Shown: one piece after another, positions 1,787 through 56,864 of the stretch
How positions within the stretch are numbered: the stretch's first letter is position 1
Layout: every line of letters starts with the position of its first letter
NCBI RefSeq assembly: GCF_031851795.1
Contig: NZ_CP134696.1
Location: forward strand, 3,368,501 to 3,432,500
Reading direction: 5' to 3'
DNA: 64,000 nucleotides
Origin: Pontibacter sp. G13
GTDB lineage: Bacteria; Bacteroidota; Bacteroidia; J057
The notes under the pieces: model-generated
Told to the model about the DNA's origin: nothing
What the model saw: the letters and a program-made list of their open reading frames with translations, nothing else
Database searches by the model: none
Translations under genes and position numbers: made by a program

Positions 1787-4765
1787 ATGAAACGACCCTT
1801 GACGATTCTGATCGCCATTTTGTGTGGGTACATAGGGGCCTTTGCCCAATCCCACAAGATCAGCGAGTCACTCCTGACCAAGATGTCAGAAGCCCCGAAC
1901 CAGCCAATCGCTGTGAGTATTTTGCTGCGCAATCAGGCTCCGGTCAATTACATGATGCGTGATTTCGAGAAGCGCCAAATTCCCCAGTCCCAACGGGTTC
2001 CCCAAGTGATTGCCGCACTCAAACAGCAAGTCAATGCCACCCAGCCATCATTGATTGCCACCCTCAAGCAGACCGTCGGTGTAGAGGTGGCATCCATCCA
2101 ACCCCTCTGGATCGTGAATGGCGTCTTCGCTACAATGACTCCTGCTGCAATCCAAACGCTCAGTCAGAATCCCGATGTCGAATGGATCGATTTCGACCAA
2201 GTAGTATTGCTTGAGCGTGATGATACGCCGCCAGTTCCTGCGACTCCTCAACCGGGATTTCGGGAACCGGGATTGACGGCCGTTAACGCACCCGCTATGT
2301 GGGCATTGGGGTATACTGGCTATGGCCGTAGAGCTTTGAGTGTAGACACCGGTGTCGACCCGACTCACCCTGCACTCAAGGACCGATGGGTGGGCAATTT
2401 CTTCCCTGCCTCCCAGGGTTGGTTGGATGTCTACGGCAATGAAGAGACCACTCCGTCAGATTGCGACAATCACGGGACGCATACCACCGGCACCATGCTA
2501 GGTCTTGATCCGGTGACCCAAGATACTATCGGAGTGGCTACACAGGCACTTTGGATGGGGATGCAGGGGATCTGCTCCGGTTCCAATCTCCAGTCTCGAA
2601 TCTCTTTGGGATTCCAGTGGGCATTGGACCCAGACGGTGATTCCACCACGGTGTACGACATGCCAGATGTCATCAACAACTCTTGGTATCACCCCGGTCT
2701 TTCCAACGAATGCAACAGCTTCTACTTGACACTGTTTGATGCTTTGGAGGCCGCAGGTATTGCAGTCGTTTTCTCAGCGGGAAATGAAGGAAACGGTGTG
2801 GGCACGATCACAGCTCCCAAGAACATCAACACGGATACCGTCAGTGTATTCAGTGTCGGCAACCTGAATGGATACAGCCAATCCTTCCCGATCGCCAACA
2901 GTTCCTCAAGAGGTCCTTCTGCTTGCGGGGGAGTAGGTTCATTGCTGATCAAACCTGAAGTATCCGCACCGGGTGTCAATGTACGCTCTTGTCATCCCGG
3001 CGGAATTTACGTCAACTTCACAGGTACTTCGATGGCCGCTCCTCATGTGTCAGGAGCGATCTTGTTGCTCAAGGAAGCTTTCCCATACTTATCGGGACGC
3101 CAATTGAAATTGGCCTTGTACTACACGGCGGTGGATATCGGCGCTATCGGCGAGGACAACGATTACGGCATGGGAATCATCGATGTGTATGCCGCATACC
3201 AATACCTTGTCGCGCGAGGAAATACCCCCGCTACTCCCCAAACTACGGTGGACGCAACTCTGGAATCAGAATTCCAAGCTGTGTGCGGGACAAACGGAGC
3301 GACTACCTACCTCCTTACCAATTCTGGGTCGGTCAATCTGGACAGCGCGCAAATCTCCTTCCGATTGGATGACAATACCCCTGTCTCCTTTGCATGGAAT
3401 GGATCTTTGGCTCCCGGACAATCTACGATGGTAGAACTTCCGATTGACTCACTCTCACTTGGCAAGCACCAGATCTTCATTCAGGTGACCGATGTCAATG
3501 ATCAAGAAGATTACCTGTTTCTCAATAGCACTTTGACACAGGACCTGATCGTGCTGGAGGCAGCTCAGGTATCCGCCCAAGATTCGGTACCGGTTTGTGG
3601 AGCCTCTGAAGGATTCTTGACAGCAGAGGTCGACAACGAGCTAGCAGAAATCTCATGGTATGATGCACCGACTGGCGGAAATCTCATCGGCAGCGGACCG
3701 TATTTTTGGACACAGCCATTGGCGACGAGTACTACCTTCTATGCAAGTGCCCAAATCGCTTCCAAGGGCGGTATCGAAATTGAGGAAGTTCCAACTGGTG
3801 GACTCCATTCCCAATCCAAACTCAACGGAATAGAATTCGAAACCTTCTATGACGCGACCATCCAATCTGTAGCCATCCACACCATCCTAGCGGGACCTCA
3901 GGAGATCTTGCTGAGAGACGTCGACGGAACATTGCTGGATATCTTTGTGACTGATGCCCTCCAACCGGGCCGCCACGTCATCCCAGTCAATTTTTCCGTG
4001 GAGGCAGACCAAACCTACCAGATGATCTTGGGCTTCAACTCTACGGGCGGATTGTACACCACCACCACGGATGTCTCCTTCCCATATTCTGTCGGAGGAG
4101 TAGTATCCCTGTTGGGGATACCCGGAAGCTTGGTGCCCAGTACCACCTACTTCTTCTTCTATGACTGGGAAGTTTCTTATGAAACCGCCTGTCCTCGTCA
4201 GCCTGTGACGGCAGCATTGTCTCCGGGGGTAGCCATTGCACAGGCTTTTGCAAATACGCAGGTATTGGATCTCGATCAGGCACAGGCCAATGTCCAATTC
4301 TTCCAGCAGAGTCTCAATGCCCAATCCCAGATCTGGAACTTTGGTGACGGCACGCAGGATACCTCCTCCAATCCCGTGCATGCCTACTACCAGGCGGGCG
4401 AGTATGTTGTCACCCTACAGATCACCAACGCGGAGGGCTGTACCGATTCGGACACCTTGCATGTATCGGCTTCCGGGACCTATCCATTCCCGATCTCGGT
4501 CGATCCAGAATTGCCCGAGTCTGCATGGCAAGTCTACCCCAATCCTGTGCAGGATAAGCTGACGATTGCGTGGGAGTCGCCATTGCGCCCAACTGCGTTC
4601 CGACTGTTCGACGTATCCGGCAAGCGCTTGATGGAATGGAATCCCCAGCAATCCATTGGGACTTCCCAGATCTCCATGCAGGCGCTTCCAGAGGGCGTTT
4701 ACCTGCTGCAAATGGAGGTCAATGGCCAGACGTATTTCCGGAAGATCCTCCGATCAACCAACTAG
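1787..4765 (+). CDS. Secreted subtilisin-like serine protease (S8) with T9SS type A tail
   Basis: 992 residues. An N-terminal signal peptide ends near Ala20-Gln21, followed by an inhibitor-type propeptide (about 25-145). The S8 catalytic domain (about 160-475) has Asp187 in SVDTGVDPTHP, His229 in DNHGTHTTG and Ser415 in GTSMAAPHVSG, so the triad is complete. Downstream come CARDB-like and Ig-like modules, a beta module with SKLNGIEFETF, a PKD domain (FGDGTQDTSSNP) and a type A sorting tail (VYPNPVQDKL...). The protein should be exported by the Sec and type IX systems and degrade extracellular protein. The ATG at 1787 is chosen because it directly precedes the signal peptide. The C-terminal half is paralogous to the preceding gene. 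Confidence 0.93.
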   Translation: MKRPLTILIAILCGYIGAFAQSHKISESLLTKMSEAPNQPIAVSILLRNQAPVNYMMRDFEKRQIPQSQRVPQVIAALKQQVNATQPSLIATLKQTVGVEVASIQPLWIVNGVFATMTPAAIQTLSQNPDVEWIDFDQVVLLERDDTPPVPATPQPGFREPGLTAVNAPAMWALGYTGYGRRALSVDTGVDPTHPALKDRWVGNFFPASQGWLDVYGNEETTPSDCDNHGTHTTGTMLGLDPVTQDTIGVATQALWMGMQGICSGSNLQSRISLGFQWALDPDGDSTTVYDMPDVINNSWYHPGLSNECNSFYLTLFDALEAAGIAVVFSAGNEGNGVGTITAPKNINTDTVSVFSVGNLNGYSQSFPIANSSSRGPSACGGVGSLLIKPEVSAPGVNVRSCHPGGIYVNFTGTSMAAPHVSGAILLLKEAFPYLSGRQLKLALYYTAVDIGAIGEDNDYGMGIIDVYAAYQYLVARGNTPATPQTTVDATLESEFQAVCGTNGATTYLLTNSGSVNLDSAQISFRLDDNTPVSFAWNGSLAPGQSTMVELPIDSLSLGKHQIFIQVTDVNDQEDYLFLNSTLTQDLIVLEAAQVSAQDSVPVCGASEGFLTAEVDNELAEISWYDAPTGGNLIGSGPYFWTQPLATSTTFYASAQIASKGGIEIEEVPTGGLHSQSKLNGIEFETFYDATIQSVAIHTILAGPQEILLRDVDGTLLDIFVTDALQPGRHVIPVNFSVEADQTYQMILGFNSTGGLYTTTTDVSFPYSVGGVVSLLGIPGSLVPSTTYFFFYDWEVSYETACPRQPVTAALSPGVAIAQAFANTQVLDLDQAQANVQFFQQSLNAQSQIWNFGDGTQDTSSNPVHAYYQAGEYVVTLQITNAEGCTDSDTLHVSASGTYPFPISVDPELPESAWQVYPNPVQDKLTIAWESPLRPTAFRLFDVSGKRLMEWNPQQSIGTSQISMQALPEGVYLLQMEVNGQTYFRKILRSTN

Positions 4766-4787: not shown

Positions 4788-4819
4788 AAAGCCCGCTTCA
4801 ATCATTGGAGCGGGCTTTT
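4788..4819 (+). terminator. Intrinsic terminator after the subtilase gene
   Basis: The stem AAAGCCCGCT pairs with AGCGGGCTTT across an 11-nt loop and is followed by a short T run. Repeat element E1 begins 25 nt further on, in the same orientation. Confidence 0.9.
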
Positions 4820-4844: not shown

Positions 4845-5058
4845 GGGGCATGCCCAGCGTGCTTGGCATCTGATACTTGCTCGGCCGTGGAGTCGCTGGT
4901 CGGCGTCTTCCGGGCTCGCTGGTCGCTCGGTCGGTGGATCATGTGGGGTCTCATGGAAACCTTGGTGAGAAAGTTCCAAATATCTGTGTCCGGGAAGTCA
5001 AGCTACGGCCCACCGACTGAACCCTTCAGGTGCCTCATGCCACACCAGCCAGCCGCAC
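4845..5058 (+). repeat. E1: structured intergenic element, tail type 2
   Basis: Starts with GGGGCATGCCC. The 5' hairpin arms are CCAGCG (4854-4859) and CGCTGG (4894-4899); this pair differs from the arms of the other copies on both sides at once, so pairing is kept. Next comes the shared block around GGTCGCTCGGTCGG. The central variable stem has arms GTCGGTGG (4930-4937) and CCACCGAC (5010-5017) around a 72-nt loop. It ends in CCTCATGCCACACCAGCCAG plus CCGCAC, the tail shared with E5. It lies after the subtilase terminator and faces E2. Confidence 0.75.
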
Positions 5059-5071
5059 ATGGAGAAGAAAA

Positions 5072-5253
5072 GCGATGGCCTGCCGCGGCGTAAGCTGCCT
5101 GGAATGGCCTCCGCTAGGAGGAGTCCGAGATCTGCGGGTGGCGATCTCTCGCCCGCAGATCTCGGACCGAGCGTCAGCGAGCATGAAAGGGAGCGACCGG
5201 GCGACAGACTAGGCCAAGCGCATGTATAATTGCCGAGACGCCCGGATACGCCC
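5072..5253 (-). repeat. E2: structured intergenic element, tail type 1
   Basis: Read on the minus strand it starts GGGCGTATCC. Hairpin 1 has arms CCGGGCG and CGCCCGG (plus-strand 5239-5245 and 5197-5203). A shared block CTCGCTGACGCTCGGTCC follows. The central palindrome has perfect 16-bp arms (5123-5138 and 5152-5167) with a 13-nt spacer; inside it GGCGA and TCGCC can form a smaller stem with a TCTC loop. A CCTCC-N4-GGAGG hairpin and then the tail TTACGCCGCGGCAGGCCATC complete it. It lies downstream of the ABC-F gene's terminator, in that gene's orientation. Confidence 0.85.
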
Positions 5254-5286: not shown

Positions 5287-5320
5287 CCAAAAAGCCGCCC
5301 CAAAATATGGAGCGGCTTTG
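5287..5320 (-). terminator. Intrinsic terminator of the ABC-F gene
   Basis: On the minus strand, AAAGCCGC pairs with GCGGCTTT around a 13-nt interior and is followed by a TTTTTGG run. The gene's stop codon is about 20 nt upstream. Confidence 0.9.
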
Positions 5321-5341: not shown

Positions 5342-6967
5342 CTATGCGTGGACCGAGTACATTTTTTCGCGGAGTTGCTGAATCTCGTCGTTTTTGAGAT
5401 AGTCGTCAAAGCTCATCATCCGGTCGATCACACCATTTGGAGTGAGTTCGATGATCCGGTTGCCGACAGTCTGCATGAACTGGTGGTCACCAGAGTGCAT
5501 CAAGAGCATTCCGTTGTAATCGATGAGGCCGTTGTTGAATGCCTGAATCGATTCCAAATCGAGGTGCTGAGTCGGCTCGTCGATGATCAGGAAGTTGGGC
5601 TGCTGCAGCATCATACGAGACAGCATGCATCGCATTTTTTCACCCCCTGAGAGGACGCGGCACATTTTCATCACTTCCTCACCGGAGAAGAGCATTTTGC
5701 CGAGGAAGCCACGGATAAACTCAGACTCGGTGTTGTCGGAATATTGTGATAGCCAGTCGACGAGGTTCAGGTCCTTGTCGAAATAGCCGGTGTTGTCCAG
5801 CGGCAAGTACGCGTTGGTCACCGTAACTCCCCACTTGATTTCACCCCCATCTGCCTCTCTTTCACCTGCGACGATATCGAAGAATCGGGATACCGCCAAT
5901 CGGTTTTTGGACAGCACGATGATCTTGTCTCCTCGTTGCACATCCAGATCCACGTTGGCAAATAGCGTTTTGCCTTCGTCATTGGAAGCACTGAGGTTGG
6001 TGAGGGTGAGGACCTGCTTACCAGCTTCACGCTCAGATTTGAACATGATCGCAGGATAGCGACGGCTGGAAGGCTTGATCTCCTCGATATTCAGTTTATC
6101 GATCATTTTCTTCCGAGCAGTAGCCTGGCGAGACTTGGCTGCGTTGGCGGAGAATCGAGCGATAAAGTCTTGAAGTTCCTTTTTCTTTTCCTCGGCTTTC
6201 TTGTTGCGGTCGGCACGCTGACGGGCAGCAAGCGTACTGGCTTGGTACCAGAAGCTATAGTTACCCGTGTAGAGGTTGACCTTGGAGAAGTCGATATCCA
6301 CTACGTGTGTACACACGGCGTCCAAGAAGTGACGGTCATGCGATACGACGATGACGGTGTTGCGAAAATCAGCGAGGAAGTTTTCGAGCCAGCCGATGGT
6401 TTCGACGTCCAATTCGTTGGTAGGCTCATCGAGCAACAGTACATCGGGGTTACCGAAGAGGGCCTGTGCAAGGAGTACCCGGACCTTTTGGTTACCGTTG
6501 AGGTTGGCCATGGTCTGGTAGTGATAATCCTCGGTAACGCCCAAGTTACTCAAGATTTCAGCAGCTTCACTTTCGGCGTTCCATCCGTCGAGGTCCTCGA
6601 ATTCTGCGCTGAGGTCAGCGGCTTTGAGGCCATCTTCATCGGTGAAATCCGGTTTGGCATAGATCGCGTCGATCTCATTTTTGAGATCCCAAAGCTTCTT
6701 GTTGCCCATGATCACGGTCTGTAGGACCTCGATCTCATTGTAGGCTTGGTGATCCTGCTTCAGGACAGACATCCGCTTTCCGGGCTCCAGGGAGGCTCCC
6801 CCGGTGTTGGCTTCAATCTCTCCAGAAAGAATTTTTAGGAAGGTGGATTTACCCGCACCATTGGCACCAATCACGCCGTAGCAGTTGCCAGGAGTGAATT
6901 TGATGTTGACATCTTCAAACAAGACGCGTTTTCCAAAGCGCAAGGAAATATTGGATGCTGTGAGCAT
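5342..6967 (-). CDS. ABC-F family ribosome-associated ATPase (YbiT/EttA type) with degenerate second P-loop
   Basis: 541 residues, two ATP-binding cassettes joined by a linker, no membrane segments: the ABC-F plan, whose members act on the ribosome rather than in transport. Cassette 1 has Walker A GANGAGKST (34-42), a signature variant LNGNQK and Walker B LLLDEPTNELD. Cassette 2 keeps the signature LSGGEK and Walker B FLIIDEPTQHLD, but its Walker A reads VLSKNRLAVSRFF. The lysine that binds ATP phosphate is gone. The cytosolic role is probably translation-related; the substrate state is unknown. Divergent from the aquaporin gene. A TATTTTTG -7 box lies at 7026-7033. Confidence 0.9.
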   Translation of the reverse strand: MLTASNISLRFGKRVLFEDVNIKFTPGNCYGVIGANGAGKSTFLKILSGEIEANTGGASLEPGKRMSVLKQDHQAYNEIEVLQTVIMGNKKLWDLKNEIDAIYAKPDFTDEDGLKAADLSAEFEDLDGWNAESEAAEILSNLGVTEDYHYQTMANLNGNQKVRVLLAQALFGNPDVLLLDEPTNELDVETIGWLENFLADFRNTVIVVSHDRHFLDAVCTHVVDIDFSKVNLYTGNYSFWYQASTLAARQRADRNKKAEEKKKELQDFIARFSANAAKSRQATARKKMIDKLNIEEIKPSSRRYPAIMFKSEREAGKQVLTLTNLSASNDEGKTLFANVDLDVQRGDKIIVLSKNRLAVSRFFDIVAGEREADGGEIKWGVTVTNAYLPLDNTGYFDKDLNLVDWLSQYSDNTESEFIRGFLGKMLFSGEEVMKMCRVLSGGEKMRCMLSRMMLQQPNFLIIDEPTQHLDLESIQAFNNGLIDYNGMLLMHSGDHQFMQTVGNRIIELTPNGVIDRMMSFDDYLKNDEIQQLREKMYSVHA

Positions 6968-45186: not shown

Positions 45187-45372
45187 GTGTGCAGATGGCC
45201 TGCGGCGGCGTAAGGGGTCTGGAATGGCCTCCGTCAGGAGGAGTCCGAGATCCGCGGGTGGCGATCTCTCGCCCGCGGATCTCGGACCGAGCGTCAGCGA
45301 GCATGGAAGGGCCCGACCGGGCGACGATTTGGCCAAGCGTCTACAAGTATGCCAGAACGCCCGGATACGCCC
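45187..45372 (-). repeat. E3: structured intergenic element, tail type 1
   Basis: Same orientation as the upstream glycine-rich gene. Starts GGGCGTATCC; hairpin 1 arms at plus-strand 45358-45364 and 45317-45323 (CCGGGCG/CGCCCGG). The central palindrome arms 45243-45258 and 45272-45287 are 16 bp with a 13-nt spacer and differ from E2 by one T-A to C-G swap made on both strands. CCTCC-GTCA-GGAGG (plus strand) and the tail TTACGCCGCCGCAGGCCATC plus TGCACAC follow. It lies between the glycine-rich gene's terminator and the pcrA start. Confidence 0.87.
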
Positions 45373-45451: not shown

Positions 45452-47578
45452 TTAGTTACGGATCAAGACAGATTTGACAGGCACCATGCCGTTCGCAGAA
45501 ACTTCCACAAAAACCATCCCTGAGACGGTCTGGGGAAGATTCACGGCCAGCAAGGACCCACTGTTGGGGGATTGAACGCGATGGTACAATTCTCGGCCTG
45601 AAAGATCGATGATTCTGATCTGTACCTGATTGGCCTGGTAGTCATGGCCCAATTCAATCCAAAGTTGGTCTACATTGCTAGCGGGGTTAGGGAAGAGTTT
45701 AACTTGGGAAGTAGATTGTGCGGTAGAGATTTCGACGATGGAAGACTCGTGCATCTCGCCGTTGATGTCCACCTGCCGGACTTTGTAGAGCATCGAGTTG
45801 GAGGTTCCAGTAACCAACTCGGAAAACTGGAAAGTCGCTTGGCTCATGTCAGAAGACTGGACAGCTTGCTCACCGACTTTGTGGAAATTGCCCTGATTGT
45901 CGGCTCTCATGATGTCGTAGCGCTCGGCATTGGTGACATTGAAGACTTCCCATGTGAGGAATGCCTGATTGCCTTGGAGGTCTGCCGTGATGTTGCCCCA
46001 CTCCAATGGCAGGCTAATCTCGCAGATCGTACCTCCTGCGCCAGCTGTACCGGGCGTACCGAAGATGGTTTCACCATCCAATCCGTCTGATCCCATGATC
46101 GTGCCGGTACCACCGAGGCCCGCTGTACCTCCGAGAGCGAGTCCGGCAGATCCACCGTTTCCACCCATAGATCCAATTGGGAAACCTTCTCCGCCGTTGC
46201 CGCCTGTACCACCGTCGCCGGACATACCTGAAGCACCGTTTCCGCCATCGCCGCCATTTCCATTGGCAACCCCGAGGCCGCCATTTCCACCTGCGCCACC
46301 ATCACCGCCTTTGGCATTTCCACCATTGGCACCGACGCCTCCATTGCCGCCCATCGCTTCATTGGGGCAACCGGTTCCTCCTTCGCCGCCATTGCCGCCA
46401 TTGCCACCGACAGCAGTACCTCCTTCGCCACCAGCGCCACCATCACCGCCATTGCCTTGGTCCTCGAATCCTGCACCACCAGCGCCTCCGGGGCCTCCGT
46501 TTCCGCCTACCGCGACGCCTCCAGTACCACCATCACCACCTTCGATCCCAGTACCTCCTTCACCGGGAGGCAAGGTTCCGCCTTTGGCGCCATTTCCTCC
46601 GGGCGTACCTACGACGCTTCCTCCATTGCCACCGGGACCACCGGGGCCGCCATTGATGAAAATGAAATCTCCATCCAGTCCGGGAGCGCCTTCTCCTCCG
46701 TCTCCGCCAAAGATCAGCGTACTCACGGATTCACCGGAAGCGGCTTTCACGGCTCTTGCTGAATATGAATTGGTGAATAGTTCATATTTCACGTCCATGA
46801 TGACATTTCCGCCATCGCCGCCAGCTCCAGCACGAAGGTACTCGCTGCTGCGAATGGAGGGAGTGCTGCCATTGCCGCCGGTACCTCCACGGATCTCCAC
46901 TGCTTGGCTCCCCATCAGGTACTCGGTCACGATCACGACATCTCCCCCGTGGCCGCCATCTGCGCCATTGGCTCCGTGACCACCAGGGGCTCCTTGGATT
47001 CCGGCTTCCATGACAATGGTATCTGCTAAAAAGATGACATTGGACCCATCATTTCCGTTCATGGAAGTTCCTCGCGCAGCTCCTGAAAGCAGGATACGCT
47101 CATTGCCACTCAGAGCAGCAGACGGAGAATAGGTCCCCTTGAATACAATTTTGGGGCTTGAGATCATCAGTGCATGGCTCCGGGCGGGAGATGCCAGACG
47201 GTCGTTGAGCATGTGGGCGATGGTTCCGTCTATTTCGATCGTTCCATCAGATACCAACATGACTTCGGATTCCAACCTCCAAGTATCGGCTGCCGAAAGG
47301 GTCATGCCATCTGGTTGGTAGAAAGTGCCCGAAAGGGGCGTATTGGGTAGAATGTTTCGAATAGCGTGCTGTTTGCGAACTTGATCTGCGACTTGCATCA
47401 ATTTCCCAACTTGGGAAGAAATGAGGTCTTGCTGTTGATCGGGCATTCCGGTAGCCTCCATTTTGGGATTGATCTGGGGCTTGGATGACTGAGCCTGAAC
47501 CGCAGCTGGACGGTACACGAACGATAAGGAAAAGAGAAGAACTAGGGAAAGAATACGTCTGGGATGAAATACATTCAT
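45452..47578 (-). CDS. Secreted glycine-rich (GGX-repeat) protein with T9SS type A tail
   Basis: 708 residues. Signal peptide, an N-terminal region of about 160 residues, then about 300 residues (roughly 195-510) in which Gly is nearly every second or third position (GGNGGPGGAGG, GGDGGAGGEGG and many variants), resembling PGRS-type or polyglycine-II proteins. A fibronectin-like domain (EWGNITADLQGNQAFLTWEV) and a type A sorting tail (LFPNPASN...VKSVLIRN) end it. It should be exported and surface-attached or released; possible structural or adhesive role. No enzyme motif. Confidence 0.85.
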   Translation of the reverse strand: MNVFHPRRILSLVLLFSLSFVYRPAAVQAQSSKPQINPKMEATGMPDQQQDLISSQVGKLMQVADQVRKQHAIRNILPNTPLSGTFYQPDGMTLSAADTWRLESEVMLVSDGTIEIDGTIAHMLNDRLASPARSHALMISSPKIVFKGTYSPSAALSGNERILLSGAARGTSMNGNDGSNVIFLADTIVMEAGIQGAPGGHGANGADGGHGGDVVIVTEYLMGSQAVEIRGGTGGNGSTPSIRSSEYLRAGAGGDGGNVIMDVKYELFTNSYSARAVKAASGESVSTLIFGGDGGEGAPGLDGDFIFINGGPGGPGGNGGSVVGTPGGNGAKGGTLPPGEGGTGIEGGDGGTGGVAVGGNGGPGGAGGAGFEDQGNGGDGGAGGEGGTAVGGNGGNGGEGGTGCPNEAMGGNGGVGANGGNAKGGDGGAGGNGGLGVANGNGGDGGNGASGMSGDGGTGGNGGEGFPIGSMGGNGGSAGLALGGTAGLGGTGTIMGSDGLDGETIFGTPGTAGAGGTICEISLPLEWGNITADLQGNQAFLTWEVFNVTNAERYDIMRADNQGNFHKVGEQAVQSSDMSQATFQFSELVTGTSNSMLYKVRQVDINGEMHESSIVEISTAQSTSQVKLFPNPASNVDQLWIELGHDYQANQVQIRIIDLSGRELYHRVQSPNSGSLLAVNLPQTVSGMVFVEVSANGMVPVKSVLIRN

Positions 47579-53498: not shown

Positions 53499-54938
53499 AT
53501 GAGTACTGCTACGATTCCTACTGCCCCTAATTCGGCCACTGCATCGGATATGCAGCAGGCATTCCAGCGCCAGCAGGCACACACACCTGTCATCGCCGCT
53601 ACTTCCGCCAAAGAGCGAGTAGCCAAGCTCAAGAACCTCCAGCAGTATCTCATCGATCATGGACCCGAGATCGAGGAAGCCATCTTCCAAGATTTCAAGA
53701 AGCCCGGGATGGAGACCTTTGTCTCTGAGCTGATGGTCGTCCATGGCGAAATCAATCATGTCACCAAACATCTTTCCACCTGGATGAAGCCCAGCAGAGT
53801 ACCGACCCCTCTTTCCATGACAGGTACTTTCTCGCATGTGCGCTACGAGCCTCGGGGAACCGTCCTGATCATTTCCCCTTGGAACTATCCAGTACAACTC
53901 ACCCTATGTCCATTGATCACGGCGATCGCCGCTGGAAATACCGTGATCATCAAACCCTCCGAGTTGTCGCCCAACACCTCAGCTTGGATGGCCAAAATGG
54001 TGAAGGACCTATTTCAGCCCGAAGAAATCGCCCTGTTCGAAGGAAATCATGAAGTCGCTCAGGCGTTGCTCGCACTGCCATTCAACCACATGTACTTCAC
54101 CGGAAGTCCTCAGGTGGGCAAAATCGTGATGCGCGCCGCGGCGGAACACCTCAGCTCCATCACCCTCGAACTCGGCGGCAAGACCCCCACCATCGTAGAT
54201 GCCTCTGCCAACTTGTTTTCCGCAGCTGACAAGATCGCCTGGGGCAAATGCCTCAACAATGGCCAGAGCTGCGTAGCACCCGATTATCTCATGATTCACG
54301 AATCTGTGAAGGATGGATTTGTGGAGAAATTTGGTGCCGCATTGAAGCGCATGTACGGAGACGATGCCCAACAATCGGACTCTTTCGCGCGGATCATCAA
54401 TCGTCGTCATTTTGATCGGATTGTCGGACTCTTGGAAGACGCCAAACAAAAAGGCGCGAAAGTGCTGATCGGAGGCAAAACCGACCCTGAAGATCTGTAT
54501 ATTGAGCCCACGCTGCTAGACGGCGTAACCGCGGAGATGCGGATCATGCAGGAAGAAATCTTTGGGCCGATCTTGCCCATGACCACTTTCCGAGACATTC
54601 AGGAGGTGACTCCTGTGATCAACTCCGCAGACCGTGAGCGCCCCCTCTCGACCTACATCTTTTCTCGCAACAAGCGGAATATCGACACCATCCTCGACGG
54701 AGCCACCTCTGGAGGTGTAGCCATCAACGAGACGATGATCCAATTTGGCCACACCGAGCTACCAAAAGGCGGTGTCAATCGTTCTGGAATTGGAGCGACT
54801 ACCGGTCATCATGGATTCAAGGCATTCAGTCACGAGCGCGGCGTCTTCATCCAGAAGTACGGGACGCTCAAATTCCTCTACCCGCCATATTCAGATGGCC
54901 TCAAAAACATGATCAAAAAAGCCCTCAAACTCATCTAA
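53499..54938 (+). CDS. Aldehyde dehydrogenase (class 3-like)
   Basis: 479 residues from ATG 53499 (MSTATIPTAPNSA); the ORF to 53475 adds eight residues. NAD(P) aldehyde dehydrogenase superfamily: NYPVQL region, Gly-rich FTGSPQVGK, Glu in LELGGKTP, catalytic Cys in NNGQSCVAPDY and EEIFGPILP. Without a C-terminal membrane helix, and with the length and N-terminal helix of class 3 (fatty-aldehyde) enzymes. It oxidises aldehydes to acids in the cytosol; substrate not determinable. Single gene with a strong terminator. Confidence 0.93.
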   Translation: MSTATIPTAPNSATASDMQQAFQRQQAHTPVIAATSAKERVAKLKNLQQYLIDHGPEIEEAIFQDFKKPGMETFVSELMVVHGEINHVTKHLSTWMKPSRVPTPLSMTGTFSHVRYEPRGTVLIISPWNYPVQLTLCPLITAIAAGNTVIIKPSELSPNTSAWMAKMVKDLFQPEEIALFEGNHEVAQALLALPFNHMYFTGSPQVGKIVMRAAAEHLSSITLELGGKTPTIVDASANLFSAADKIAWGKCLNNGQSCVAPDYLMIHESVKDGFVEKFGAALKRMYGDDAQQSDSFARIINRRHFDRIVGLLEDAKQKGAKVLIGGKTDPEDLYIEPTLLDGVTAEMRIMQEEIFGPILPMTTFRDIQEVTPVINSADRERPLSTYIFSRNKRNIDTILDGATSGGVAINETMIQFGHTELPKGGVNRSGIGATTGHHGFKAFSHERGVFIQKYGTLKFLYPPYSDGLKNMIKKALKLI

Positions 54939-55045: not shown

Positions 55046-55079
55046 AGGACATCTCATTGAGGTGTCCTGCCTTTGTTTG
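55046..55079 (+). terminator. Terminator of the aldehyde dehydrogenase gene
   Basis: CAGGACATCTC pairs over 11 bp with GAGGTGTCCTG (one wobble), loop ATT, then CCTTTGTTTG. E4 begins 31 nt further on. Confidence 0.88.
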
Positions 55080-55110: not shown

Positions 55111-55336
55111 GGGCGCATCCCGGCGATCTGGCAGGAGGTTCCTCCTGGGCAGGGAAGTCACCGGGACCGGGCTGTGCAGGAGTCCGCTGGCGCTCCCGTC
55201 CTCGCAATTCGGTGGAAAGTCAATCTTTCATCTGGCTCAAACTTCCCACTCACAGCGCATCCATTTCTCTTCTGCTCGGACCTCGCCGGAGGCTCGTCCT
55301 TACCATCCCTTGCGCCGCTGCAGGCCATCTGCACAC
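55111..55336 (+). repeat. E4: structured intergenic element, tail type 1
   Basis: Starts GGGCGCATCCC. Hairpin 1 arms CCCGGCG (55119-55125) and CACCGGG (55159-55165) close a stem holding a second hairpin CAGGAGG-TT-CCTCCTG. The shared GGACCGGGCT and GTCCGC block follows. A central imperfect stem GTGGAAAGT/ACTTCCCAC takes the place of the variable palindrome, then CCTC-GCCG-GAGG and the tail TTGCGCCGCTGCAGGCCATC plus TGCACAC. The most divergent copy of the set. Same orientation as the aldehyde dehydrogenase gene. Confidence 0.72.
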
Positions 55337-55351
55337 TAGCATCTATCCCAA

Positions 55352-55535
55352 GTGCGGCTGGCTGGTGAGGCGTGAGCTGCCTGAAATGGCCGACCTTTGG
55401 GAGGAGTCCGGGATCTGGAGGCGGCGACCTCTCGCCTCCAGATCTCGGACCGAGCCATCGGCGAGCATGGAAGGGAGCGACCCGGCGACAAGCCTGTGAA
55501 GCGGAACATTCATCTCCACACGCCGGGGCACGCCC
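55352..55535 (-). repeat. E5: structured intergenic element, tail type 2
   Basis: Minus strand starts GGGCGTGCCCC. Hairpin 1 arms CCCGGCG/CGCCGGG (plus-strand 55521-55527 and 55481-55487) differ from E2/E3 on both sides. Central palindrome arms 55406-55421 and 55435-55450 are again 16 bp with a 13-nt spacer; two base pairs are swapped compared with E2 and one is a G-T wobble. Tail CTCACGCCTCACCAGCCAGC plus CGCAC matches E1. It faces E4 and follows the MFS gene's terminator in that gene's orientation. Confidence 0.85.
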
Positions 55536-55575: not shown

Positions 55576-55608
55576 CGAAAAAGGGCCATCCCCATTGGAG
55601 ACGGCCCA
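55576..55608 (-). terminator. Terminator of the sugar operon
   Basis: Minus-strand GGGCCGTCTCC pairs with GGGGATGGCCC (mismatches inside) and is followed by TTTTTCGTTT. Confidence 0.85.
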
Positions 55609-55631: not shown

Positions 55632-56864
55632 TTATGCCTCGGCCTTTTCGGCTACTTCCGTTTTATTTTTGCCTACCACGAAGTGCAGATACGCAAATGC
55701 CGCCACCAGAATGATCGGCAATACCACCATGTAGGAGAGGGTTGTAGCTCCTCCGACCAGACCGGCCTGTGCTTCGGCTACACCAGACTCGATGGCTGCC
55801 TGAACCTGTCCATCGTAGACTTTCCCCATCATCGGCAGAATCAGGGAAGTCGACAACATGCCGGCACCGCCCATGATGGACAATCCCAAAGCACCCGTTT
55901 CAGGCATTTTGGTATTGACATAGCCCAGCATCGTAGGCCAGAAGAAGGTGATACCGATCGCAAACACGCCCGCTGCAGCGAAGATCGCGTACCCGGAGGT
56001 GATACTCATCAGGTACAATCCCAATCCGGAGAAAATAGCCGAGAACAGCAACATGCCAGACTCGGAAAATCTATGGACGATCGGCCCTGCGAACATCCGT
56101 CCACTCGCCATGAGTACATTGATGAAGACCAATACGAGGATAGAAGCAACGCCTACATTTTCGAGCAAGCTGGTGATCCATTGGTTGGTACCCAACTCGG
56201 TCGCTGCGGTCAAGAGCATACAACCTACCATGAAGAGGAACAATGGACGCGTACACGCTTTGAACATGTCGGACATGGTCAATCCAGATGCAACACGCTC
56301 TGTCTGTGGGAACTTTTGGCCAAAGAAGATCACTCCGTAGAGGATGGTGGGGATGGCCATAGTGGCCACCTTCAATTGCCAGCTCAAACCGGCACCGGAC
56401 ATCAGATACATCAACACCCCACCCAGCGCGATTCCTCCGGGGAACCAAACGTGGAAGCGATTGAGCATCTTGGTTTTGTTGTCTGTGTACATCCCTGCAA
56501 CGAGTGGATTACAGGCAGCTTCGACAAACCCATTGGCAATCCCGATGAGCAGGGTTCCGAGGAAGAGGGTCCAGAATCCAGAGGCCATGATCGTCAGGGC
56601 AATCCCTGCTGCATGTCCCACGAATGCCATGCCCATGATGCGCTTCATGCCGACGATATCGACAATCGGTCCACCGATCACCATCGCCAAGGTAAAGCCC
56701 CAAAAAGCCGTACCGGTCACCCATCCGACCTGCTCGGAAGTGAGCGAGAAAACATCTCCCCAAACTCCCATGAGATCACCTCGGATGGCGAAGGACATGG
56801 AGGTGGAAATCAGTGCCAGACAACTTGCCAGAAACAGCAAATTCCGGTTAATCTGTTTGTCCAT
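55632..56864 (-). CDS. MFS sugar transporter (FHS / FucP-GlcP type)
   Basis: 410 residues, about twelve membrane helices, inner membrane. The pattern resembles the fucose/glucose:H+ symporter branch of the major facilitator superfamily (GGPIVDIVGMKRIMG between helices 2 and 3; FVEAACNPLVAGMY; WFPGGIALGG). It is the last gene of a four-gene minus-strand unit with two sugar-type enzymes, so it probably imports their substrate. The exact sugar or polyol is unknown. Confidence 0.88.
   Translation of the reverse strand: MDKQINRNLLFLASCLALISTSMSFAIRGDLMGVWGDVFSLTSEQVGWVTGTAFWGFTLAMVIGGPIVDIVGMKRIMGMAFVGHAAGIALTIMASGFWTLFLGTLLIGIANGFVEAACNPLVAGMYTDNKTKMLNRFHVWFPGGIALGGVLMYLMSGAGLSWQLKVATMAIPTILYGVIFFGQKFPQTERVASGLTMSDMFKACTRPLFLFMVGCMLLTAATELGTNQWITSLLENVGVASILVLVFINVLMASGRMFAGPIVHRFSESGMLLFSAIFSGLGLYLMSITSGYAIFAAAGVFAIGITFFWPTMLGYVNTKMPETGALGLSIMGGAGMLSTSLILPMMGKVYDGQVQAAIESGVAEAQAGLVGGATTLSYMVVLPIILVAAFAYLHFVVGKNKTEVAEKAEA

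Follow-up and report, generated by a model that had tools for sequence, protein, structure and literature searches.

The window, a 64 kb stretch of the 7.54-Mb chromosome (C1) of Pontibacter sp. G13, contains two intergenic regions in which a pair of palindromic elements lies between convergent genes. The first pair, E1/E2, is flanked by genes 1787-4765(+) and 5342-6967(-), and the second, E4/E5, by genes 53499-54938(+) and 55632-56864(-). A related element, E3, is unpaired. The features are listed below in window coordinates; the hairpins ahead of E2, E4 and E5 were read from the sequence.

4788-4818, + strand: terminator-like hairpin of gene 1787-4765 ahead of E1 (inverted repeat I2 with arms of 15 nt and T-rich DNA after it)
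4845-5058, + strand: element E1, from family profiles and alignment; P1 GGCATG/CATGCC, P2 CCAGCG/CGCTGG, tail type 1 CCAGCCGCAC
5059-5071, no strand: E1-E2 spacer, 13 nt between facing tails; pattern match at C1:3373552-3373578
5072-5253, - strand: element E2; P1 GGCGTA/TACGCC, P2 CCGGGCG/CGCCCGG, shortened type 2 tail GGCCATCGC
5289-5319, - strand: terminator-like hairpin of gene 5342-6967 ahead of E2
45189-45372, - strand: element E3, unpaired, downstream of gene 45452-47578(-); P1 GGCGTA/TACGCC
55047-55079, + strand: terminator-like hairpin of gene 53499-54938 ahead of E4
55111-55334, + strand: element E4, subfamily B; P1 GGCGCA/TGCGCC, type 2 tail GGCCATCTGCAC
55335-55351, no strand: E4-E5 spacer, 17 nt between facing tails
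55352-55535, - strand: element E5; P1 GGCGTG/CACGCC, perfect apical hairpin, type 1 tail CCAGCCGCAC
55578-55608, - strand: terminator-like hairpin of gene 55632-56864 ahead of E5, bulged

An earlier note on this DNA had described both pairs as lying tail-to-tail between convergent genes, with one terminator-like hairpin per gene, and this was confirmed on the sequence. The tails are also unlike in both pairs, as it had claimed: E1 has type 1 and E2 a shortened type 2, while E4 has type 2 and E5 type 1. The tail spacing had been given as 13-15 nt, which is correct for E1/E2 (13 nt) but not for E4/E5, where it is 17 nt rather than 15. The long apical loop of E1 is closed by the strands GGTCGGTGG/CCACCGAC, and the perfect apical hairpin of E2 occupies positions 5123-5167. 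E3 is 92% identical to E2 across 132 nt. T9SS sorting domains were found in two products of genes neighbouring the window elements, an indication of Bacteroidota. Gene 45452-47578, which encodes a T9SS-sorted protein, contains a degenerate CCGCCATTG-like repeat run at 46164-46975, a repetitive coding stretch.

The family was surveyed in full in the region C1:2000001-4800000 (2.8 Mb, 37% of the chromosome), where genes, elements and terminators were called with our own simple scripts. Head and tail profiles identified 167 elements, and the tail is present in 155 of them. By extrapolation from the 2.8 Mb, the whole genome would contain ~450 copies. The common head is (GA)TTTGGGCGTRYCCCGGCG..CGCCGGG and the common tail ..YACGCC..GCCAKCCGCAC; the unpaired ends are GATTTG (5') and ..GCCAKCCGCAC (3'). 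The part between head and tail is interchangeable and may be a short form, a perfect hairpin of variable sequence, or a long form with a unique loop. Element lengths range from about 158 to 250 nt, with groups near 162, 184, 211 and >220. The background tail types in the 2.8 Mb are G (76), T (60), A (4) and other (15). Some subfamilies extend past GCAC: a subset with type 2 tails has a conserved extension of ~30 nt (TTTTGCTTGATCTTTTGCTCGGATACTGCG), which is carried at C1 274761, 1958489, 5736370, 6234182, 6331354, 6373677 and other positions. Replication strand was ruled out as the source of tail type, as each type is found on either strand and pairs 50 kb from each other have opposite polarity. 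The likely replication origin is near C1 3.8 Mb, at the cumulative GC skew minimum, and no element strand bias was seen around it.

The elements share a fold. Five length or subfamily classes were folded separately, and the same structure was obtained from each, with P1 GGCGTR/YACGCC, P2 CCCGGCG/CGCCGGG and a long arm. Each element has three arms, namely the closing helix P1, the hairpin arm P2, and the long arm with variable loops. Scored against a consensus structure for 19 short elements, 97.7% of cells were paired and 77 had changes on both sides; shuffles gave 24.4 such cells, and slid controls no more than 9. Compensatory changes are present in every element class. When P1 and P2 were scored over 127 elements there were 1626 Watson-Crick, 3 G-T and 8 A-C pairs, while the control, tRNA stems of the same DNA, gave 424 Watson-Crick, 35 G-U and 0 A-C pairs. 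A wobble pair is acceptable in RNA but counts as a mismatch in DNA, so the near absence of G-T pairs points to a constraint that most likely operates at the DNA level. Folded as single-stranded DNA, E5 was clearly more stable than its shuffles (z -2.98); the E1 fold, with its long loop, was not.

The position of elements relative to terminators was examined for 122 elements with a same-strand gene end no more than 300 nt upstream. A terminator lies between gene and element in 71/122, compared with 32% for element-free genes, and a same-strand terminator follows the element in 12/122, near the 8% of random DNA. As terminators precede the elements and few come after them, the elements lie behind transcription units. 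The head points towards the upstream gene. By region type, the 2.8 Mb has 81 elements between convergent genes (331 regions), 79 between tandem genes (1384 regions) and 7 between divergent genes (331 regions). The single elements of tandem regions are oriented sense in 44 cases and antisense in 17.

That sense bias and the covarying helices are what would be expected if the elements were structured 3' untranslated region RNAs, for example stabilisers or small RNAs. Neither wobble-tolerant covariation nor a location inside transcripts was found for the elements, however: G-U pairs are nearly absent, although the tRNAs of this DNA have many of them, and the elements come after terminators, not before them. 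On these two grounds the RNA reading was rejected, and we regard it as very improbable. A search of Rfam also matched no family. The scarcity of G-U pairs and the position after terminators make folding at the DNA rather than the RNA level most likely.

The earlier note had proposed a genome-wide count of convergent regions with zero, one or two elements. Among the 331 in the 2.8 Mb, 265 have no element, 53 have elements on one strand and 13 on both. The 13 double regions exceed the 4.7 expected under independence (Fisher p 1.5e-4), but the excess becomes marginal when regions are stratified by residual length (8.7 expected, P 0.047). Element placement and long permissive regions explain much of the convergent co-occurrence. 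This result favours a reading of pairs as coincidences of placement, in which every gene end acquires or tolerates, independently of the others, a single element that points away from its terminator. Element rates per gene 3' end are also of the same order of magnitude in convergent (81/662) and tandem (79/1384) regions, and looser pairs with gaps of 44-310 nt are present as well.

Orientation and spacing tell against that reading. Neighbouring elements no more than 900 bp apart in the 2.8 Mb (n=25) are +- in 20 cases, -+ in 2, -- in 2 and ++ in 1, so that 20/25 are tail-to-tail. The gaps cluster: they measure about 12-19 nt in eight pairs, 44-46 nt in three and 90-108 nt in four. The earlier note had treated pairs as a feature of convergent genes, and here it did not hold, as 2/8 tight pairs in the 2.8 Mb sit in -+ or -- gene contexts.

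Tail types were compared in the tight pairs. A whole-genome pattern that admits like tails equally found 6 pairs, none of them homotypic, and missed those at 3144848, 3201513, 3373558, 3423834 and 5949725. All 11 tight pairs (gaps 12-24 nt) are heterotypic, 10 being G/T and 1 G/A. With an expected G/T fraction of 0.38 from the background tail frequencies, the binomial probability is 0.001 for at least 9/10 G/T pairs and 0.006 for at least 7/8 outside the window. The independent evidence for heterotypy is weaker than these figures because three tight pairs share one lineage, and by our own calculation p is then about 0.003. Tight partners are also less alike than random elements (p 0.011). Random tail combinations and spacing had been named as the outcome that would tell against a paired unit. 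Tight pairs depart from it in their tails (11/11 heterotypic) and clustered gaps, but other spacings occur and two homotypic pairs are found among the wider ones (44-46 and 90-108 nt).

One combination of partners recurs. The tail TTTGCGCCCCTGCAAGGCC has exactly three occurrences in the genome (1504915, 2387452 and 4654579), and each of the three is paired tightly with an element of the C type, of which the genome has five tails at no more than one mismatch. The three composites align across both elements and have spacers of 18-19 nt, but their loops, spacer sequence and outer flanks are largely unrelated. Since the same partners occur at three distant loci with unrelated loops, the pair is inheritable as a unit. 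Independent placement at each gene end does not account for two rare partners being combined at three loci in one composite, for tight 12-24 nt spacers without a homotypic pair, or for tight pairs in -+ and -- contexts. Orientation, gap clusters, heterotypy and the recurrent composite do not follow from placement, and we consider placement as the whole explanation rather unlikely. The same features uphold the suggestion of a non-random, BIME-like paired unit, with the restriction that the majority of elements are single.

Single elements can also be compared. Those at 4673756 and 4676482, 2.9 kb apart, are near-identical from TTTGGG to GCACA and differ outside; from these precise shared ends an element is therefore copyable as a unit. 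The C-type single at 2362821 and the C member of the pair at 2387244 are near-identical until 9 nt past GCAC, which is consistent with pairs being two abutting units. Loops are unrelated even among copies with nearly identical stems. The long loops (60-75 nt) had no match among themselves or in the 2.8 Mb of chromosome, and nothing else in the whole genome matched the E1 loop. Captured sequence was ruled out as a source of loops on this basis.

The distribution of the family is patchy. A covariance model was run on 13 genomes of the taxonomic family. It gave at least 150 matches in this genome, 38 in one relative and a single match in a second, and the other ten genomes had none; some elements of the relative with 38 copies share the tail. 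A less sensitive scan of 198 genomes of the phylum gave weak matches in 5 others. The Fibrobacter MAG Mx356_bin10 has many copies with a similar head and layout, and a Spirochaetales MAG and a Flavobacteriaceae MAG have a single copy each, homology being judged by eye in all three. The Mx356_bin10 repeats have the head TTTGGGCGTGCCCCGGCG, a closing P2 arm with a loop into which other repeats are often inserted, and CTCACGC ends. E4/E5 had no match in a plasmid collection.

Patchiness bears on another reading, in which the elements are sites maintained by selection on each copy, bound by a nucleoid protein or by factors that relieve supercoiling between convergent genes, gyrase being one such factor. 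In almost all copies the stems are preserved and the loops saturated, and elements are enriched between convergent genes, as such sites might be. Selection would, however, have to act at each of hundreds of sites, what is conserved are subtype-specific sequences and not one motif, and presence within the family of genomes is patchy. We judge this reading unlikely.

No mobiliser was found; both Y1 transposase genes (PF01797) in the genome flank other repeats. The RAYT-like gene (C1:5487064-5490294) has its own palindromic arrays on both sides (CACGCGGACTTCCGGACCGTGTGC..GCAGTCCGCG), a separate repeat family, and the IS200-like gene (C1:1434026-1437367) lies inside another repeat array (GGGAATGAAATTCCCTG..ATGTCGGGCC..CATAGGGTTTCCAACCCTATG). 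The other arrays at both genes ruled out RAYT-driven REPs. An autonomous parent flanked by elements was also sought, and the three candidate genes contained no transposase by Pfam.

Motifs Y and Z alternate in opposite orientation in the BIMEs of E. coli. The present family likewise has two tail types in opposite orientation (20/25 tail-to-tail, tight pairs heterotypic), but the E. coli motifs are much smaller and form arrays of several units, whereas the present pairs have two units only, and the family has several subfamilies. REPs lie downstream of coding regions, mostly convergent and unidirectional; dimers are commonly in opposite and rarely in the same orientation, and stems often contain G-T pairs (Di Nocera et al. 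2013, PMC3733652). Repeats of the GTAG/CGTC superfamilies are high-copy intergenic single hairpins of 20-40 bp tagged GTAG or CGTC, and the CGTC repeats, which have no transposase of their own and carry short unpaired tails, have also been reported in Bacteroidetes and Spirochaetes (PMC3733652). The present elements are similarly high-copy, intergenic, palindromic and downstream of genes, with opposite-orientation neighbours dominant. They differ in having three arms in about 158-250 nt rather than a single hairpin of 20-40 bp, in being nearly without G-T pairs, and in being sited after terminators, and no GTAG/CGTC tag was seen at their unpaired ends. In REPINs (Bertels and Rainey 2011, PMC3116915) the inverted doublet is the replicating unit, the spacer is constrained more in length than in sequence, compensatory changes occur and folding of single-stranded DNA has been proposed; most REPINs join two like REPs and lie near RAYT genes. 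The inverted doublet as a unit, the length-constrained spacer, the compensatory changes and the proposed single-strand folding are common to both, but in the present family single elements and not doublets predominate, the doublets are of unlike members, and there is no linked RAYT. The family resembles REP/BIME repeats without belonging to one of their known families. Nothing specific on a family of this kind in Bacteroidota was found in the open-access literature, so it may have a name elsewhere.

Judging from sequence, the elements are probably a mobile, REP/BIME-like DNA family. The explanation that we favour, and regard as fairly probable as a whole, is a foldback DNA family, REP/BIME-like but much larger, that spreads non-autonomously through single-stranded DNA and survives behind terminators. 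Elements would spread alone or as tail-to-tail doublets in the form of a folded single strand, on which either a trans-acting enzyme or template switching at replication forks would act; the 3' tail GCCAKCCGCAC is the putative recognised end. Copies would survive best behind terminators, and we propose this as the reason why elements are in excess between convergent genes. Inverted partners of near-identical sequence would form long unstable palindromes, and surviving doublets would then join unlike members; instability of near-perfect inverted partners is perhaps the most simple explanation of tail heterotypy. Against the explanation are the lack of a mobiliser, the unrelated loops and a co-occurrence that is marginal against the length-matched expectation. 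The combination of conserved stems with saturated loops is the feature understood least, as simple recent copying would keep both. A broader proposal is tentative, and we consider it possible but doubtful: a widespread foldback family of Bacteroidota and neighbouring phyla, in which copying or homogenisation between loci would maintain stems and tails, whereas loops would be replaced or free to diverge. It would propagate in part as heterotypic tail-to-tail doublets and form a distinct, RAYT-independent class of single-stranded DNA element.

Strong compensatory evolution with virtually no wobble in a high-copy repeat is a clean case for folding at the DNA level in the cell. The preserved stems with unrelated loops, together with the three-locus composite, make the spread and likeness of palindromic repeats directly testable, in a phylum, Bacteroidota, where a mobiliser for such repeats was not found here.

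The elements at 3492528 and 3494415, separated by 1.9 kb, have head, tail and downstream flank in common; their middles differ, as if the apical part had been exchanged.
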